Virus record (IMG/VR): IMGVR_UViG_3300033273_000011
Span: 1-42,712 of that record
Direction: 5' to 3' (one strand)
Source of the DNA: a virus
Length of the DNA: 42,712 nucleotides
Program-made: the position numbers and the translations under genes
Notes under the pieces: generated by a model
The model's input: the letters and a program-made list of their open reading frames with translations, nothing else
The model's database searches: none
What the model was told of the DNA's origin: nothing
Part shown: piece by piece, positions 24,661-39,454 of the stretch
Layout of the letters: every line of letters starts with the position of its first letter
Numbering within the stretch: the stretch's first letter is position 1

Positions 24661-24865
24661 AACTACACCAGAAAACGTGAAAGAAGCGCATGAGGCACTG
24701 TTTCATGCTACAATGAATCTACCTGCTGCTGCCGCTCATTGTGGTATGACACAGAAAGAAATGAAAATGACCTTTTGGGAATACCTTAAATATCATGCCC
24801 CAGACTTTGAAATCCTTGAAGACTCCCCTCAGGTATCCAGGCGGGAAGAGTCGTGCCCTGAGTAA
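24650..24865 (+). CDS. Conserved cyanophage-type small protein, TTG start (71 aa)
   Basis: No ATG is available near the expected N-terminus. TTG 24650 is nine bases after a GGAGG (24636-24640) and gives the familiar start MSVKTTPENVKEAHEALF. The segment MNLPAAAAHCGMTQKEMK looks like a helix-turn-helix, so a DNA-binding role is possible. I recall related short ORFs in cyanophages. The last 71 bases overlap dam in another frame, and the tail encoded there (SPQVSRREESCPE) is probably not conserved. Confidence 0.6.
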   Translation: MSVKTTPENVKEAHEALFHATMNLPAAAAHCGMTQKEMKMTFWEYLKYHAPDFEILEDSPQVSRREESCPE

Positions 24866-25658
24866 ACTCTTTCAGTACATTCCTGATCTGAAAGACTACG
24901 ATGAATATCGTGAACCATTCTTAGGTGGTGGTTCTGTAGCACTGGAAGTATCTAAACGATATCCTCATTTGGACATATGGGTTAACGATCTGTATGAACC
25001 ACTGTATAATTTTTGGAGAGAACTTCAGGACCACGGCCGTGAAATTAAAGACATACTCCTCCAGCTTAAACAAAGGCACCCTGACCCCACTTCCGCCAAG
25101 AACCTATTCTTGGATGCCAAGGATTATCTATCAGGGTCTCACACAACTGTCAAGTTCCCCCCGTACAATGAGAACATCTGGCGTGCTGTTTCTTTTTATA
25201 TTGTCAATAAGTGTTCTTTCTCTGGTCTCACTGAGTCGTCATCTTTCTCCAAACAAGCCAGTGACAGTAACTTCTCCCTCAATGGAATTGAAAAATTGAC
25301 TGACTACCAAGCATTGATTGGCAACTGGAAATTTACTAACCTACATTATGAAGAGTTATTTACAGACTCCAAACGAGTATTCGTCTACTCAGACCCACCC
25401 TACGACATTAAAGATAACCTTTATGGGCGAAGGGGCAGTATGCACAAGCGGTTTTCCCACGATGGTTTTGCTGCTGCTAGCGATCGGTACATCGCTCCTC
25501 ACCTCGTATCTTACAATTCGTCTCAACTGGTCAAGGAGAGATTCAAAGGGTGGACAGTAGCAGAATTTGCACACACCTACACCATGAGATCCGTAGGGTC
25601 CTATAATACAGATCAAGCAAGCAGGACCGAACTGGTCCTTATGAACTATGAAGTGTGA
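24795..25658 (+). CDS. dam: DNA adenine methylase, Dam/D12 type
   Basis: The 287-aa product has the D12-class order: LRYPGGKSR near the N-terminus (12-20), the SAM-binding PFLGGGSVAL (41-50) and the catalytic DPPY (200-203). These place it with the alpha-class N6-adenine methylases such as T4 and E. coli Dam, usually acting on GATC. The target is inferred, not proved. It may protect phage DNA from restriction or affect expression. Dam lies between genes 44 and 62, overlapping its upstream neighbour by 71 bases, which suggests a later insertion. Confidence 0.9.
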   Translation: MPQTLKSLKTPLRYPGGKSRALSKLFQYIPDLKDYDEYREPFLGGGSVALEVSKRYPHLDIWVNDLYEPLYNFWRELQDHGREIKDILLQLKQRHPDPTSAKNLFLDAKDYLSGSHTTVKFPPYNENIWRAVSFYIVNKCSFSGLTESSSFSKQASDSNFSLNGIEKLTDYQALIGNWKFTNLHYEELFTDSKRVFVYSDPPYDIKDNLYGRRGSMHKRFSHDGFAAASDRYIAPHLVSYNSSQLVKERFKGWTVAEFAHTYTMRSVGSYNTDQASRTELVLMNYEV

Positions 25659-31931: not shown

Positions 31932-33315
31932 GAAAATTGAACTATCGATCCTCAGGAATCTTCTGTTCAATGAGGCGTACTACCGTAAGGTGGTGCCTTT
32001 TGTAAAACCTGAATACTTTGAAGATCATCATGAACGTATCATCTATGAAGAAGTTTGGAACTTCGCTAGTTCGTATGATACTGTCCCGACTTCGGAGGTT
32101 CTTATCATCAACCTTCAGGATCGTAAGGATATTACGGAGGAAGCGTACAACTTGGCAGTACAAACGCTCAAGTCGTTTGAAGACACGCCAGTTGAACACC
32201 AATGGTTACTTGACACCACAGAAAAGTGGTGTAAAGACCGAGCAATCTATCTCGCTCTACTTGAATCGATCAAGATTGCTGACGGAGGTGAATCGAAAGT
32301 ATCAAAGGATGCGATCCCCTCGATACTACAAGAAGCCTTGGCAGTATCGTTCGACGAACATGTAGGACACGACTACGTTGAAAACGTACAAGAACGATAC
32401 GAGTTCTATCATATGGAGGAGCACAAAACTCCATTTGATATCGAGAAGTTCAACATTGTCACTAAGGGTGGACTGTCTAACAAGACACTGAACGTTGCCC
32501 TTGCTGGTACTGGTGTCGGTAAGTCTTTGTTCATGTGCCACATGGCAGCAGCATGTCTGTCACAAGGCAAGAACGTTCTCTACATCACTATGGAGATGTC
32601 TGAGGAGAAGATTGCTGAACGTATTGATGCTAACCTGTTGAATGTTAACATCAAAGACATCGGTACTATTCCTGAGCAGATCTTTACCTCTAGGGTTGCT
32701 GAGATTGGTAGGAAGACTCAAGGTCGCTTGATCATTAAGGAATATCCTACTGCTTCTGCTCATGCTGGTCACTTCAAAGGACTGTTGAATGAACTGTCTT
32801 TGAAGAAATATTTCAAACCAGACATCGTGTTTGTGGACTATCTAAATATCTGTGCTTCGTCCAGGTATAAAGGACACATTGTTAACTCTTACACATACGT
32901 TAAAGCGATTGCTGAGGAACTCAGGGGTCTTGCTGTTGAGAACGACGTACCAGTCGTATCAGCAACTCAAACTACTAGGAGTGGTTTTGGTAATAGTGAC
33001 GTTGATCTCACCGACACTTCTGAATCCTTTGGTCTACCTGCCACAGCAGATTTTATGTTTGCTCTCATTAGTACCGAGGAGCTTGAACAGTCTGGCAGAA
33101 TCATGGTTAAACAACTTAAGAATCGATACAACGATCTTACCTACTATCGACGTTTCACAGTGGGTATTGACAGAGCAAAGATGAAGCTCTATAATGTTGA
33201 AGATTCAGACGCTGATAACATCCTCGATACTGAAGATGGAGATACGTTTGAAACATTCGGAGATGCTTCTTCTAAACAAAACCGCCTCGATAAATTCTCT
33301 CAATTTGTAATATGA
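31912..33315 (+). CDS. 41: Replicative DNA helicase gp41 (DnaB type)
   Basis: This hexameric 5'-3' helicase forms the primosome with gp61. It has 467 aa (T4 475). Walker A is AGTGVGKS (198-205), the Walker B strand is VFVDYLN (305-311), and [11 protein letters not shown] contains the usual glutamine and arginine. Start ATG 31912 overlaps uvsX by 20 bases; ATG 31924 is a possible alternative and would shorten it by four residues. It is followed by mazG with an ATGA overlap. Confidence 0.94.
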
Positions 33316-34037: not shown

Positions 34038-34068
34038 CCTCCCCTAAATACTAGGGGAGGATTTTTTT
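34038..34068 (+). terminator. Terminator hairpin that also holds a late promoter and ribosome site
   Basis: CCTCCCCTA (34038-34046) and TAGGGGAGG (34052-34060) form a perfect 9-bp stem with the loop AATAC, followed by A and seven T (34062-34068). The ATG of the next gene follows the T run at once. The GGGGAGG of the 3' arm is the ribosome site. RNA from upstream would terminate here or have the site masked. Confidence 0.8.
34043..34050 (+). promoter_or_regulatory. Late promoter inside a terminator hairpin (CCTAAATA)
   Basis: CCTAAATA is identical to the gene 23 late promoter octamer. It spans the 5' arm and loop of the hairpin. A start near 34056 would make a leader of about 13 bases that begins with GGAGG. 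Confidence 0.6.
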
Positions 34069-35502
34069 ATGGCAAAACAACCTGCTAATATATCTCAGAT
34101 AGTATCTCCAGTGCCCAATCCTGCTAAGGCAGCACTGAAAGCTATCTTAGAAGAGGTTGCTACATCTGGTTGGTTGAGACCAGAGAAAGCAGATAGTGGA
34201 TTTAAGTGGCCTACTAATAGACAAGGCACTTACAAAATCTATCTGAACAAATCTATGTTGCTTGATGTCATTGCTAAAAATCCTGGTGGTATATCTGGTA
34301 GAGACAAGTATCAAATTGATCTCGATAACAAGAAGATAGTCTTTGAAATTACAGGAAAGACTGGTGCTGGTGGAGCACCAGATGCTAAGACTACTGCTGC
34401 TCAAGAACGTGGATCTGCTTATATCTTACAACGTGTTCTCAAGAATAACAAAAAGTATAATTCTTCCGAAGATATTAGAAAAGACACTCAAGCATACCGA
34501 GCACTAAAAGGTATCTGGAAACTGTCTCAGTTGGAGTTTGATGATTCCTGGTTAGATGATTATTACAAGCAGCAAAAGACTATGCTGATTGAATATTCGA
34601 GTCCTAGATTCACTGAGTTTATTCGTGATGGTGGGTTTATGAAATGGGTCACAGACTTGGTTAGGAATAAGTATCAAATTTCCCAGAAAGATAACTGGAA
34701 CCCTGCTGATATCTGGTTGATTAAAGATCAGAATAAAACAATCAGAATGATTGAAGATTTGATTGATGGTGGTAAAAGTCAGACACTTCAAGAATTAAAT
34801 GCTATTTTAAGAACTTTGTTTAGAGATGACATTGTAGTTGGTGTATCTCTCAAAAAAGTTTCTGGTAAAGAAGCAAGATATGAGAGAGTCAATCTTAGTG
34901 AGGCAGACTTTGCTTCGTATAAAGAGATGTATTTTGAGGTAGAGAAAATTAAGATTGATCTATCTCTGGGTAAAAATAAGAAAGGTGTCACCTCATTTGG
35001 TACACAGGATACAAGAGTTTTTGTTAAATCTCCTAAGTACACATATAATTTCCAGATTAAAGGTAATGATAGTTCTGGGTTCTCTAACTTGAAGTGGGAA
35101 CCTACTCAAGAAGGAGCTGCCTCTGCTCGCCTAGGCAAAGCACCTGTTGATATGGTACAAAAATTGATGATCGACTATGGTGTCCGCTTTGATAACAAGC
35201 ATGGACAGTACCCAAAGAGTCTGACGGACTTCACCAAAGACCAGGATGCCTATGCTAAGATAATCAAGTCACTGAGGCAGAAGGGGGTTGATACGGTTGT
35301 CGATGAAGACACAGCGATCAACAATTTCCAGGTCGTCCTTGCTACCGAAACTCATGTTGCTACGTCAAAGATGATGCAACTGTACTTCCTCGACATGCTC
35401 ATGGGCATGAAAGAAAAGGAACGTAACAAGTTCATGACTGACATGACGTTCCTCGCCCAGAAGAAGGGCGACCGCTTTGGACCTTTCGGGAAACTGTACT
35501 GA
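34069..35502 (+). CDS. Hypothetical protein with nuclease-like motifs (477 aa)
   Basis: I do not recognise this as a named family. The section around residues 216-275 has WNPADIWLIKD followed by a helical stretch and DIVVGVSLKKVSGKEARY. That order (P-x-D-I-W, then a strand ending in S-L-K-K) is like the PD-(D/E)xK nuclease core seen in many restriction enzymes, but the third acidic residue is not clear. Residues 90-150 have an AAQERGSAYILQRVLKN segment. It shares one base with the ligase-like gene. A structural or virion-associated role is also possible given the late promoter. Confidence 0.7.
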   Translation: MAKQPANISQIVSPVPNPAKAALKAILEEVATSGWLRPEKADSGFKWPTNRQGTYKIYLNKSMLLDVIAKNPGGISGRDKYQIDLDNKKIVFEITGKTGAGGAPDAKTTAAQERGSAYILQRVLKNNKKYNSSEDIRKDTQAYRALKGIWKLSQLEFDDSWLDDYYKQQKTMLIEYSSPRFTEFIRDGGFMKWVTDLVRNKYQISQKDNWNPADIWLIKDQNKTIRMIEDLIDGGKSQTLQELNAILRTLFRDDIVVGVSLKKVSGKEARYERVNLSEADFASYKEMYFEVEKIKIDLSLGKNKKGVTSFGTQDTRVFVKSPKYTYNFQIKGNDSSGFSNLKWEPTQEGAASARLGKAPVDMVQKLMIDYGVRFDNKHGQYPKSLTDFTKDQDAYAKIIKSLRQKGVDTVVDEDTAINNFQVVLATETHVATSKMMQLYFLDMLMGMKEKERNKFMTDMTFLAQKKGDRFGPFGKLY

Positions 35503-36713
35503 TGTCTAAGAACACCCACCTAGAACACTTGGAAGACAGCATCCTCTTTGACGGCAGTCAAGGAGCAAGAGATGCTTTTATGTTCTTGGATGAACTTGCC
35601 CAGACATTCAGTGGCAAACAAAAGAATACATTTAAAATTACTACGAAGTGGGATGGTGCTCCTGCTATTTTCTGTGGCACCTATCCTGGTTCGACCAGAT
35701 TTTTTGTAGGCACCAAGTCGGTGTTCAACAAAAATGCTAAGATTAATTTTAGAGACACTGACGTTGATGTAAATCATGGTCATGCTCCTGGTCTTGTTTC
35801 TAAACTGAAAGATGCCCTTAAGTATTTTCCTGCCCTAGGTATTAAAGGGGTGGCACAAGGGGATCTTCTGTTCACAGACGACAAGAAGTATGAAACAATC
35901 AACGGAGAACGATGTATCACGTTCACTCCTAACACAATTACATATTGCATACCAGAAACCTCCGCTCTCTACGAGAAAGCAAAGAGGGCCAAAATCGGAG
36001 TTGTCTTTCACACAACGTATACAGGGCGCAGTGTTGATAGCCTTAACGCTACTTTTGGTTACGATATAACCAGACTCAATCAATCTGATGATGTGCTTGT
36101 ACTCAGTGCTGAGACTGGCCAATTGGGTAAAGATGTGCTGTTGACACAGCAAGAAGTCAATAAGTTAAAGAGTATGAAGAGAGCATCTACTACTCTACTA
36201 AATCAATCAGCATCATTTTTAGATAGTGTAGCAGAACAGATCGAAGCAAACGATCAGTTAACTGTAGGACCCCGACTCAAGATCTATTTCAACACGTATG
36301 TCAGACAGGGACGACGAGTTAGTAGTGCTTCTAACTTTGTACGTGATTTTAAGCAGTATTTTGGGGGAGAAGTAAAGAAGGCAGCAGACAAAGTTAAGAC
36401 CCCAAAAGCAAAGGCAGGTAAACTGAAGAAACTATACGATGGTCTAGACTTTATTGAAGCAAACGAGAATGCTCTTCTCAAAACAGTGGGTCTATATACT
36501 ACATTACAGCAAGCTAAACTACTCTTCATTCGTAAACTAGAGAAGGGTGAGAAGATTCGTACCTATCTGAGAAGTGAGAATGGTTACAAGATAACCTCTC
36601 CAGAAGGATATGTTGCTATCCAAGAGGATGCTACGGCAGTCAAACTGGTGGACCGCTTACAGTTCAGTGTTGCTAACTTCAACGTATCAAAGGATTGGGT
36701 TGACGGGAAATGA
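35502..36713 (+). CDS. Ligase-like (nucleotidyltransferase-fold) protein, DUF6267-like (403 aa)
   Basis: ITTKWDGAPAIFCG (residues 47-60) contains K-W-D-G, which matches motif I (KxDG) of the DNA/RNA ligase and capping-enzyme superfamily, where the Lys becomes adenylated. IKGVAQGDLLF may be motif III, IGVVFHTTYTG another core strand and SPEGYVAI (E368-G369) motif IV (EGxV). I think this is the family named DUF6267, from memory. No OB-fold domain is evident. Ligase activity is not shown; the residues simply allow it. It overlaps the following nucleotidyltransferase gene as ATGA. Confidence 0.7.
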   Translation: MSKNTHLEHLEDSILFDGSQGARDAFMFLDELAQTFSGKQKNTFKITTKWDGAPAIFCGTYPGSTRFFVGTKSVFNKNAKINFRDTDVDVNHGHAPGLVSKLKDALKYFPALGIKGVAQGDLLFTDDKKYETINGERCITFTPNTITYCIPETSALYEKAKRAKIGVVFHTTYTGRSVDSLNATFGYDITRLNQSDDVLVLSAETGQLGKDVLLTQQEVNKLKSMKRASTTLLNQSASFLDSVAEQIEANDQLTVGPRLKIYFNTYVRQGRRVSSASNFVRDFKQYFGGEVKKAADKVKTPKAKAGKLKKLYDGLDFIEANENALLKTVGLYTTLQQAKLLFIRKLEKGEKIRTYLRSENGYKITSPEGYVAIQEDATAVKLVDRLQFSVANFNVSKDWVDGK

Positions 36714-37261
36714 GTAGAGCAGTCTTCACTTTTGGTAGGTTTAATCCACCTACTATCGGACATGAGAAGTTGATCCAAGCAGTTGCTAAGCAAGCTGGTA
36801 CGGATGACTATCTTATTTTCACCAGTCACTCGCTGGATAAGAAAAAGAACCCTCTAAAGTCTGATATAAAGGTGAAGTATATGAAACTCATGTTCCCTAA
36901 ACATGCCAAGAGTATTCAATATAACACAGATATTAAGACACCGATCCATGTGCTCCAGCATTTACAAGGAACTTATGAAGATATCACCATGGTAGTGGGC
37001 AGTGACCGTGTTGCTTCCTTTACAGGCATGTTGACAAAGTATAATGGTATTGAGTATACTTTCCGAAACATTGATGTAGTCTCTGCTGGTGATCGTGATC
37101 CCGATGCTGATGGTGCCGCTGGTATGTCAGCAAGTAAGATGAGAAAAGCAGCAGCAGAAGCAGACTTTGTTTCTTTCCAAACTGGTATTCCAGATACATT
37201 GAACATCGAAAAGAAGATGGAACTGTTTATGGAAGTCCGAAAAGCAATGGGCATCAAATGA
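36710..37261 (+). CDS. HxGH-type nucleotidyltransferase (NMNAT/cytidylyltransferase-like, 183 aa)
   Basis: The N-terminus FTFGRFNPPTIGHEKLI has the TxGH form (15-18) of the HxGH motif with the usual preceding GRFxPP. MSASKMRKAA (139-148) is the ISxTxxR-type motif that binds the triphosphate. VVGSDRV is another typical strand. Such enzymes transfer a nucleotidyl group, for example from ATP to NMN. The substrate cannot be told from sequence. It is coupled to the ligase-like gene upstream and to a small SH3-like ORF downstream. Confidence 0.82.
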   Translation: MSRAVFTFGRFNPPTIGHEKLIQAVAKQAGTDDYLIFTSHSLDKKKNPLKSDIKVKYMKLMFPKHAKSIQYNTDIKTPIHVLQHLQGTYEDITMVVGSDRVASFTGMLTKYNGIEYTFRNIDVVSAGDRDPDADGAAGMSASKMRKAAAEADFVSFQTGIPDTLNIEKKMELFMEVRKAMGIK

Positions 37262-37530
37262 GAGATTTTAGGGACATTAAGAAGACGGCAGACCAACAAA
37301 GGTTCCGCCTGAAAGAAGTTTATCAACCAGGAGACTTGGTGTTTAATACCAATACAGGAGAGAAAGGGAGGGTGCATCGTGCTGGTCCTAACTATGTTAT
37401 CGCTATTACTGAGAGTGGTGATATGTTCCGTGCTTGGGTATCTGATATACGTGAAGTACAAGAGACTATAAATAAAGAAAGGAAAAGTAGTATTTTTACA
37501 AATAATGGAACGTCAAAAACCAACGACTGA
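37258..37530 (+). CDS. Small KOW/SH3-like protein (90 aa)
   Basis: It starts at the ATGA overlap. Residues about 20-62 (YQPGDLVFNTNTGEKGRV, HRAGPNYVIAITESGDMFRAW) have the G-D-x-V...G-x-x-G-x-V pattern of KOW or SH3-like barrels. The last 25 residues are polar and Lys/Thr-rich, and the exact late promoter TATAAATA lies within this end. It overlaps the following gene by 26 bases. Function unknown. Confidence 0.6.
   Translation: MRDFRDIKKTADQQRFRLKEVYQPGDLVFNTNTGEKGRVHRAGPNYVIAITESGDMFRAWVSDIREVQETINKERKSSIFTNNGTSKTND
37467..37474 (+). promoter_or_regulatory. Exact late promoter TATAAATA
   Basis: This is a perfect match to the T4 late consensus, within the end of the SH3-like ORF and 31 bases before the ATG of the 269-aa gene. 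Expected start is near 37480. Confidence 0.65.
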
Positions 37531-38314
37531 TATTAAACATAATGATGACTTCTCGAAAGCTCTAATTGAATCTTATAGTCGCTGGATGAGCGGCGGTGGT
37601 TTCGGCCAGCATCTAGAAGAAGGTATCCCTGCTGAAATGAAGCAAGGACCTGAGACACCAACTAGAGAAGGTGGTGCTGATGCTTCCACTTCTATCCCTG
37701 ATCTCTCTGGCAAGGAGAATAAAGAAGATGATTTTTCTACAAAGGATCCCAAAGCAAATGCGGGTGCTCCTGATCCTGCTACCGATCTACGTGTCGGTGC
37801 AGGTGTCAAACAGTCTCATGGAGCAGAGATTAAAGACACCACGAAGGTGGTTGCGAGGGAATCCTGTGGGGACTGTTCTTACTGTGGAGGGAAAGGGTGC
37901 TCCAAGTGTGAGAAGGAAGATAAGAATACTATGAAGAAAGAAACTTTTGAGTTTGAACTTAATGGTGAGACATTCATCTTTGAGAAGAAGAATGCTGAAG
38001 GTAAAGAACAGGGTCTTGACGGCAAAGCTTGCTGGAAAGGTTATAAGAGAATGGGCACCAAGAAGAAGGGTGGTAAGACTGTTGACAACTGTGTCAAAGC
38101 AGGTTACGAACCCACTGGCGAGATGATTGACGAGAAAAAGAAACTCGATCCCGTTGGTAAGGAAGACAAGGACATCGACAACGATGGTGACCACGATAAG
38201 TCTGACAAGTATCTCCTAGCACGTCGTAAGAAGGTTTCTAAGATTATTGGTGCTAAGAAAAAGATGAAGGAAGAAGCAGAATTCCGTAAGGAGATCGACG
38301 AAGAAAAAAAGTGA
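37505..38314 (+). CDS. Late modular protein with zinc-ribbon and Ca-loop-like motif (269 aa)
   Basis: The protein looks modular. Residues 1-110 are low complexity with Pro/Gly/Asp. Then comes a DnaJ-like zinc cluster CGDCSYCGGKGCSKC (near residues 120-134), a FEFELNGETFIFEKK strand pair, a CWKGYKRMGTKKKGGKTVDNC segment (two Cys, basic), and DKDIDNDGDHDKSD, which resembles an EF-hand or dockerin Ca-binding loop. The C-terminus is Lys-rich and helical. I recall the last two modules in other marine myophage structural proteins. A virion or prohead role is likely but unproved. There is no strong ribosome site near the ATG. Confidence 0.65.
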   Translation: MERQKPTTDIKHNDDFSKALIESYSRWMSGGGFGQHLEEGIPAEMKQGPETPTREGGADASTSIPDLSGKENKEDDFSTKDPKANAGAPDPATDLRVGAGVKQSHGAEIKDTTKVVARESCGDCSYCGGKGCSKCEKEDKNTMKKETFEFELNGETFIFEKKNAEGKEQGLDGKACWKGYKRMGTKKKGGKTVDNCVKAGYEPTGEMIDEKKKLDPVGKEDKDIDNDGDHDKSDKYLLARRKKVSKIIGAKKKMKEEAEFRKEIDEEKK

Positions 38315-38878: not shown

Positions 38879-39454
38879 ATGTCCTTATACGGTAGAACGG
38901 ACAGCAATGCTAACAAGACCAAAGCTGGTCGTGGAGTGTCTGCATCGTCCCAAGCAAAACAAATTCTTTTTATTGACGACACCGAAGCAGCACTTGCCGA
39001 GAACAAGGCACGTGGTCTAAATGCTCCTGGTTGGTGGTCCTATTTCACCTACACTGATAGTGAAGGTCACACTCGCCATAAGGCAGAGATGCTAGTAACG
39101 ATTGCTGGTCCTGATCTCAACGCTAATGAGACCCAGGCAGACGACGCTGCTGCTGCTGACGTTTCTGTTGTCATCACCATCAACGCTCAACCTATTACTC
39201 AAGCAGTTGCTGTTGGTGCTGTTCTCAGCTTGATTGCTGACGCTATCGCTACTCCTCCTGGTGACGCTTCTACCCTTCAATATCAGTGGCAGAAGAAATC
39301 TGGCAGACGTTGGATCAATGTTGGTGTTAATACTCCAACCTATGATGTTCCTGTCTACGCTGAAACTGATGCTGGTGACTACAGATGTAAACTCACCACC
39401 ACGTCTGGTGCTGCTGAAGTAATCACTGCTACTGCTACTGTAACTACTGCCTGA
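38879..39454 (+). CDS. Virion protein with Ig-like domain (191 aa)
   Basis: The N-terminal 75 residues (RTDSNANKTKAGRGVS, ILFIDDTEAAL, APGWWSYFTYTDSEG) are an unassigned structural-looking domain. The C-terminal part is Ig-like: LQYQWQKKSGRRWINV (Trp on strand c), then TPTYDVPV and AETDAGDYRCKLTT with the D-x-G-x-Y-x-C signature. Ig-like domains are common on phage surfaces, such as T4 Hoc, and may bind carbohydrates. A head decoration role is likely but inferred. Codon use is rich in C/T-ending codons as in the capsid gene. It stands alone behind a perfect late promoter. Confidence 0.78.
   Translation: MSLYGRTDSNANKTKAGRGVSASSQAKQILFIDDTEAALAENKARGLNAPGWWSYFTYTDSEGHTRHKAEMLVTIAGPDLNANETQADDAAAADVSVVITINAQPITQAVAVGAVLSLIADAIATPPGDASTLQYQWQKKSGRRWINVGVNTPTYDVPVYAETDAGDYRCKLTTTSGAAEVITATATVTTA

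Follow-up and report, generated by a model that had tools for sequence, protein, structure and literature searches.

The stretch of viral DNA analysed here, hereafter the window, is a 42.7 kb fragment of a T4-like marine phage (IMG/VR record IMGVR_UViG_3300033273_000011, positions 1 to 42,712), in which we describe a compact operon of four genes encoding a probable nuclease (gene 1), a probable ligase-like covalent nucleotidyltransferase of the Pfam family DUF6267 (gene 2), a HIGH-type nucleotidyltransferase (gene 3, hereafter NTase) and an SH3-like protein (gene 4). With a little more confidence than doubt, we believe that the operon is expressed late and supplies head-associated enzymes in marine T4-like phages, most of them cyanobacterial. 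The reading is carried by the operon and its conserved motifs, a late promoter core upstream of gene 1, the fusion of genes 2 and 3 in some relatives, capsid-targeting peptides on relatives of both, and published detection of gene 3 orthologues in virions.

Operon layout and start signal

The window has a T4-like gene order (terminase, sheath, portal, gp21, gp22, major capsid, polymerase, UvsX, gp41). Genes 1 to 4 lie on the plus strand at 34069-35502 (477 amino acids, aa), 35502-36713 (403 aa), 36710-37261 (183 aa) and 37258-37530 (90 aa), and each open reading frame (ORF) abuts or overlaps the next. All four ORFs had been listed by a first-pass annotation of the same DNA, and the motifs it quoted for them are present (PxDIW as NPADIW, SLKK, KWDG, EGYV, TxGH as PPTIGH). 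They are not chance occurrences, as the family matches reach 3e-127 for gene 2, 1e-6 for gene 3 and 3e-107 for gene 1, and key residues are invariant in 67 gene 2 and 59 gene 1 relatives. The closest relatives over the region are Synechococcus phage ACG-2014h (S-MbCM7; 74% identity in DUF6267) and Prochlorococcus phage P-HM2 (67%), where the same order follows mazG under the annotations hypothetical, hypothetical and cytidyltransferase.

A late promoter inside a terminator had also been proposed, and both components are there. The element at 34038-34068 (plus strand) reads CCTCCCC-TAAATACTA-GGGGAGG-ATTTTTTT, with the stem CCTCCCC/GGGGAGG followed by a run of seven T residues, and the T4-type late promoter core TAAATA lies at 34045-34050, in the loop of this strong intrinsic terminator hairpin. 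TAAATA is enriched in the window (37 copies observed against 24.0 expected, 0/100 shuffles), with copies directly upstream of the terminase, sheath, portal, gp22 and capsid genes. Terminator-embedded copies account for 22 of the 1053 sites over all loci, and 17 of these 22 stand at the start of the operon, so that the same element opens it in relatives; in an alignment the stem varies but stays paired (CCTTCCC/GGGAAGG in locus L101). In 114/128 loci a copy of the core is found no more than 140 nt from where the ORF upstream of DUF6267 starts, compared with 11% at random, and the core is less frequent near the starts of DUF6267 (60/161 loci) and of the NTase (30/117), which indicates that the nuclease gene usually opens the operon. 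This recurring promoter-in-terminator start signal is new, as it was not found in the literature searched.

DUF6267 as a candidate ligase family

Gene 2 is a full-length member of DUF6267 (PF19782; T4-GC71), a family previously without an assigned function (E=3e-127, 425 bits against a 27-bit cut-off, profile positions 1-376 of 376). Its KWDG motif occupies residues 49-52 and EGYV residues 368-371. Across 67 DUF6267 sequences, K49, W50, D51, G52, Q119, G120, D121, H170 and Y173 are invariant, as are E368, G369, V371, K381, R385, F388, N392 and F393 (codons of K49, E368 and K381 at 35646-35648, 36603-36605 and 36642-36644). Seven divergent sequences keep the motif residues K49, D51, G52, Q119, D121, E368, G369, V371 and K381, G120 being the exception, and K49, D51, G52, D121, E368, G369 and K381 are retained even by homologues that are far shorter. 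In the predicted structure of DUF6267 (predicted local distance difference test, pLDDT, 89; predicted template modelling score, pTM, 0.80; helical insert at residues 216-348), KxDG, QxD, HTxY, EGxV and K381 are placed on or beside the strands expected for the superfamily, and in order and strand position they correspond to covalent nucleotidyltransferase motifs I, III, IIIa, IV and V.

With DNA and RNA ligases and capping enzymes, DUF6267 shares KxDG, a motif-III-like QxD, EGxV and the motif-V lysine in the right order. It differs from them in having D for E in motif III, no lysine after EGxV, a 130-residue helical insert before motif IV and no detectable sequence relation. Foldseek comparison with the Protein Data Bank (PDB) recurrently returned adenylation domains of NAD+-dependent DNA ligases (E 0.23-2.5, many entries) and T4 DNA ligase, along with a few coiled-coil and membrane-protein matches at the same weak level. 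In a viral fold library, the recurring matches beyond the family itself were RNA and DNA ligases (E 0.027-1), including an iridovirus polynucleotide kinase/ligase (0.027) and the RNA ligase of Agrobacterium phage Atu_ph07 (0.031). Taken together, the motifs and these weak fold matches of the model suggest that gene 2 is probably a covalent nucleotidyltransferase with the ligase fold. The ligase-like assignment is new: DUF6267 was known before as a bare family and is named in no paper of the searched literature.

A hypervariable slot for probable nucleases

Gene 1 belongs to phrog_1462 (T4-GC 533-419 family; E=3e-107) and matched no Pfam and no NCBIfam family. Its NPADIW motif lies at residues 211-216 and SLKK at 260-263, and E113, W161, W210, P212, D214, I215, S260, L261, K262 and N275 are invariant across 59 aligned relatives (codons of D214 at 34708-34710 and of K262 at 34852-34854). 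These sequences conform to the PD-(D/E)xK signature E...PxD...(E/S)xK, and, as in nucleases of that class, the E lies in a helix, PxD precedes a strand and SxK, with S for the second acid, is on a later strand; unlike in them, two helices separate D and SxK. We consider gene 1, judging by these motifs, to be probably a PD-(D/E)xK nuclease. Its AlphaFold2 model is confident (pLDDT 90, pTM 0.73); searched with Foldseek against the PDB it returned no nuclease and nothing below E 0.26, and the profiles of gene 1 and of DUF6267, compared with PDB sequences, gave no match beyond coiled-coil artefacts. A CD-NTase reading of gene 1 was rejected, the PDB fold matches concerned being insignificant and that family's second catalytic acid being absent.

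The position upstream of DUF6267 is strikingly variable. Complete ORFs from 131 loci fall into 18 clusters without BLAST links, hhalign linked none of the other clusters significantly to gene 1, and the gene 1 cluster fills the slot in 20/57 loci of a scan that used DUF6267 only. A hydrophobic-SLK (hSLK) motif nevertheless recurs in 8/18 clusters against 2.2 expected, and several occupants have a textbook D..SxK hairpin (S-SM1_188, EPKTDILFVKGGKKYKCSMKWGDSFQL; L046, PKTDILIGNKRLSLKIG), so the slot seems to be a place for changing nucleases. A nuclease fold shared across the slot proteins is likely, the short hSLK motif being their sole common feature. Such a hypervariable slot, with its predicted nucleases, is new in that it was not found in the literature searched.

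The adenylyltransferase and its SH3-like partner

Gene 3 matches CTP_transf_like (T4-GC190; E=1e-6, 29.4 bits against a cut-off of 21) and carries GRFNPPTIGH and SASKMR. Residues G9, R10, P13, G17, H18, S140 and R145 are invariant and 13/13 family members match, so that its motifs confirm the HIGH-type nucleotidyltransferase expected from the first-pass annotation. The branch includes NMN adenylyltransferase (NMNAT), PPAT, FAD synthetase and UPF0348/MJ0951. NMNAT was rejected as an established identity, since gene 3 failed the curated NadD and NadR cut-offs (TIGR00482, 29.6 against 112 bits; NadR, 15.9 against 341).

Gene 4 is homologous to the SH3-like C-terminal domain of fused gene 3 proteins, a homology that supports the SH3-like nature already suggested for it. 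In S-SM1, S-SZBM1 and S-CREM2, the three virion-detected proteins that we compared by sequence, the NTase is built as capsid-targeting peptide (CTS)-NTase-SH3, and the window thus carries a split form: genes 3 and 4 are the catalytic and SH3-like halves of the T4-GC190 protein, at the same genome position. The T4-GC190 virion protein of cyanomyoviruses is single, whereas in the window it comes as two proteins, of which the catalytic one lacks a targeting peptide.

Two side observations concern these proteins. The 90-aa SH3-like protein (37258-37530; phrog_4808) and some NTases are annotated as 'ribonucleotide reductase alpha subunit / NrdB' (L001, L007), a name that nothing in the sequence supports and that seems to have spread by annotation transfer. 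Many NTases (L023, L025, L031, L041, L055 and others) are extended at the N-terminus by a further domain, roughly 300 aa long, that starts ESIIDIPRRTYAPGVFD.

Targeting peptides and virion presence

The capsid-targeting peptide of T4 is MKTYQEFIAE, and enzymes delivered from T4-like capsids are already a known kind (Alt, IPI). The first 10 residues of T4 internal proteins send them to the prohead, residues 4 and 7 serving in targeting and residues 8 and 10 in cleavage (PMC9026906). Applying the exact register defined there for IPIII (Y/F4, F/Y7, hydrophobic 8, E10) to non-redundant N-termini, we found the peptide in 16/79 DUF6267 and 15/80 NTase proteins, compared with 15/762 other plus-strand ORFs, 0/1612 minus-strand ORFs and a frequency of 0.0003 in shuffles. 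DUF6267 N-termini in many relatives resemble MYSFKQYLNEA or MKKFQDYLVED. The NTases of S-SM1, S-CREM2 and S-SSM5 begin MKKFSAFLNEA, MKNFSSFLTEA and MKKFSAFLTEA, respectively, and that of S-SZBM1 begins MRFRQFIIEA, which is shorter by one residue. Predicted targeting peptides on DUF6267 are new; none was found in the literature searched.

Published mass spectrometry places gene 3 orthologues in the virions of five phages. T4-GC190, a cyanophage core protein, was detected among the virion proteins of S-SM1 (PMC3037559). For S-SZBM1 (PMC9146016), S-SCSM1 and S-CBWM1 (PMC9602691), and S-CREM2 (PMC10665884), the reported virion proteins include an NMNAT or cytidylyltransferase. The peptide rule agrees with the proteomes, in that the peptide-bearing NTases of S-SM1, S-SZBM1 and S-CREM2 were detected and peptide-less DUF6267 proteins were not. 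The relatives of genes 2 and 3 resemble T4 IPI-III and Alt, which are CTS-targeted, ejected cargo, in the 10-residue register, in late expression and, for gene 3, in presence in virions; they differ in having other folds and enzyme types, and genes 1 to 3 of the window have no peptide. As a separate observation, the virion of S-CREM2 also contains gp156 (L092, 7013-7726), a nucleotidyltransferase of the polymerase-beta type.

Linkage and distribution

Among 46 loci fetched by gene 2 alone and with at least 3.5 kb downstream, gene 3 lies within 3.5 kb in 38 and is immediately adjacent or fused in 20, and the tight coupling described by the first-pass annotation holds. DUF6267 and the NTase form one ORF in L085 and L089 (591 aa) and in S-PM2. 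In the original S-PM2 record NC_006820.1 (L007, 4995-6774) this gene is split into ORFs p141 and p142, whereas LN828717.1 matches without interruption and a protein of 591 aa is known; either an error in the sequence or divergence between lineages may account for the split.

Phage records number 466 for DUF6267, 552 for the NTase and 72 for the gene 1 family. Almost all those with DUF6267 are cyanomyoviruses, with pelagiphage, methylophage and a few others besides, and DUF6267/NTase counts are matched in Cyanophage (61/61), Prochlorococcus (24/24) and Methylophilales (4/4) records. DUF6267 was rejected as a bacterial gene: its 37 loci in 84,980 species genomes are nearly all on contigs of metagenome-assembled genomes (MAGs), and we read them as phage contigs binned with the MAGs. 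The first-pass annotation had taken independent distribution of the genes as evidence against it, and this was found in part. Gene 3 occurs without a neighbouring gene 2 in 121Q-like coliphages (enterobacterial jumbo phages), where it lies beside a Dam-like methylase, and many relatives have unrelated proteins in place of the gene 1 family; genes 2 and 3, however, co-occur or are fused in marine T4-like phages.

A zeta-toxin/polynucleotide-kinase-like P-loop protein (GIFKAFFLAGGPGSGKT) was also seen in the same cassette of HTVC008M (L002, 7718-8380) and of L039, L043, L049 and L055, which are of pelagiphage type. The HTVC008M protein matches Pfam Zeta_toxin (3e-13) and a phrog polynucleotide kinase (9e-8). 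The kinase-like protein sometimes has a targeting-like N-terminus, and in L039 it is fused to the NTase.

Proposed mechanism and the evidence against it

With targeting peptides on relatives of genes 2 and 3, and gene 3 orthologues in virions, late synthesis, packing and ejection are the most likely life of these proteins. At the terminator, read-through from the replication genes should stop and late transcription start, driving expression of the variable probable nuclease, DUF6267, the HIGH-type adenylyltransferase and its SH3-like partner domain. DUF6267 would form a Lys49-nucleotidyl intermediate, as a covalent nucleotidyltransferase of the ligase/capping superfamily. The products would be made late in infection, and at least the adenylyltransferase would be packed into the prohead core and enter the next cell together with the ejected DNA. 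There it may contribute early to takeover of the host, to repair of nucleic acid or to counter-defence.

Several results weigh against this picture. Genes 1 to 3 of the window start MAKQPANIS, MSKNTHLEH and MSRAVFTFG, with no targeting peptide, and the peptide rule does not predict that any of them is targeted by itself. DUF6267 is absent from the published virion lists of S-SZBM1 (S-SZBM1_141) and S-CREM2 (gp87), as is the gene-1-slot protein from that of S-SZBM1, all three being without the peptide, and detection of enzymes in CsCl-purified phage may reflect carry-over, as noted by the authors (PMC9602691). On the side of the chemistry, genes 1 and 2 have no non-self fold match below E 0.001 in the PDB or, for gene 2, the viral library, and hhalign detected no similarity of DUF6267 to T4 Rnl2 (a profile of T4 and phage relatives) or gp30. 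The claims of the first-pass annotation are narrowed accordingly. Carriage in the virion is supported by the published detection of gene 3 orthologues and by the N-termini of relatives, but the window's gene 1 and 2 products have no signal and their orthologues went undetected, in the proteomes of two phages for gene 2 and of a single phage for the gene-1-slot protein. Likewise, the nuclease-like and ligase-like labels retain their invariant residues (E113, PxD214 and SxK262; K49xDG, QxD121, E368GxV and K381) and, for gene 2, recurring ligase matches; structure prediction, proposed as the check on both folds, gave confident models (pLDDT 90 and 89) with nuclease and ligase matches that are lacking or insignificant. 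The N-terminus of gene 4, MRDFRDIKKTA, bears a loose likeness to the capsid-targeting peptide, and gene 4 might bring gene 3 into the head.

Alternative explanations

No specific role stands high in our estimation: NAD supply, end repair and counter-defence are each improbable taken singly. If gene 3 were an NMNAT, as published authors have proposed, it could rebuild NAD+ early, with DUF6267 using NAD+ as donor and gene 3 recycling the released NMN, and so offset NAD-depleting defences or support ligation. NMNATs are indeed among its closest curated models and solved relatives (NadD model, 6e-7; NadR, 1e-6 in family members; MJ0541, 0.022; NadR, 0.026), in the PDB DUF6267 is matched best by adenylation domains of NAD+-dependent ligases, and the two proteins are fused in some phages. 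Yet gene 3 scores far below the curated NMNAT cut-offs, PPAT, FAD synthetase and MJ0951/UPF0348 match it about equally, and by eye DUF6267 shows no likeness to the NMN-binding Ia motif of NAD+ ligases, so we regard NAD supply as unlikely. We are similarly doubtful of end repair, for which T4 Pnkp/Rnl1 provide the heal-and-seal model and in which RNA (tRNA, for instance) or DNA cleaved by a host defence would be mended and rejoined by DUF6267 and its partners, the nuclease trimming or cutting. The RNA ligases and polynucleotide kinase/ligase among the top non-self viral fold matches, the kinase in pelagiphage relatives and a hypervariable nuclease slot, as an arms race predicts, all suit it; the lack of significant similarity to Rnl2 and gp30 in sequence or profile, the absence of the kinase from the window's cassette, and late instead of early expression do not.

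The products could instead act in the same cell, on concatemeric DNA or in prohead maturation, their presence in virions being structural or residual. T4 IPIII itself helps assemble heads (PMC9026906), and the late promoter, the head-protein neighbours and the peptide-less genes 1 and 2 of the window would fit such a role. It is, however, hard to square with fully conserved catalytic residues, with peptides in relatives that end in the E10 required for cleavage of T4 cargo, and with a nuclease slot far more variable than is usual for assembly proteins, and we give it little credence. Less probable still, the genes may be unlinked and merely share a late transcription unit. The rarity of the gene 1 family relative to DUF6267 and the NTase, and the NTases beside a methylase in 121Q-like coliphages, are in keeping with this, but it is countered by the DUF6267-NTase fusions, by the proximity of the two in most loci and by their near-equal counts in cyanomyoviruses.

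Within the favoured reading of a late, head-associated enzyme operon, the boldest version is a capsid-delivered cut-adenylate-join machine, consisting of a hypervariable nuclease, DUF6267 as a new ligase family, the adenylyltransferase and, in some phages, a polynucleotide kinase (PNK)/zeta-like kinase. In the opening minutes of an infection it would override a host defence that cleaves nucleic acid or depletes NAD, or repair its damage. We offer it as a speculative proposal that is probably wrong in its full form. The anti-phage defence profiles of PADLOC gave no match to genes 1 to 5 up to E=1.

Neighbouring features

Gene 5 (37505-38314, plus strand, 269 aa; phrog_4359) is lysine-rich, with GLDGKACWKGYK and EF-hand-like KDIDNDGDHDKSD motifs, and S-SZBM1_139, which holds the same position and has a related motif, is a virion protein. 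In most loci, cassette proteins with no other relation to one another, S-SZBM1_139 among them, share EF-hand-like D.DNDGD..D and GKACWKGYK/PSCWKGYK modules, which may belong to the head interior. A phrog head protein (38879-39454, by profile match) neighbours the operon. Elsewhere in the window, 24795-25658 encodes, by eye, a Dam-type N6-adenine DNA methyltransferase-like protein (LRYPGGKSRA, SDPPY); 121Q-like coliphages, like Xanthomonas phage XbC2, also have a methylase next to the NTase (L005, L006). A perfect sigma-70 consensus promoter (TTGACA-17-TATAAT) lies at 33167-33195 within the helicase gene, upstream of mazG and a thioredoxin-like gene.

Significance

Cyanomyoviruses rank with the most abundant of known viruses, and nearly all of them carry this operon, two of whose three enzymes had no assigned function. 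If our reading is correct, a conserved domain of unknown function would become a candidate for a new family of ligases, its catalytic lysine named, and sequence would predict which phage enzymes are packed in the head. It would also provide a first mechanistic frame for the NMNAT-like enzyme that recurs in cyanophage virions.

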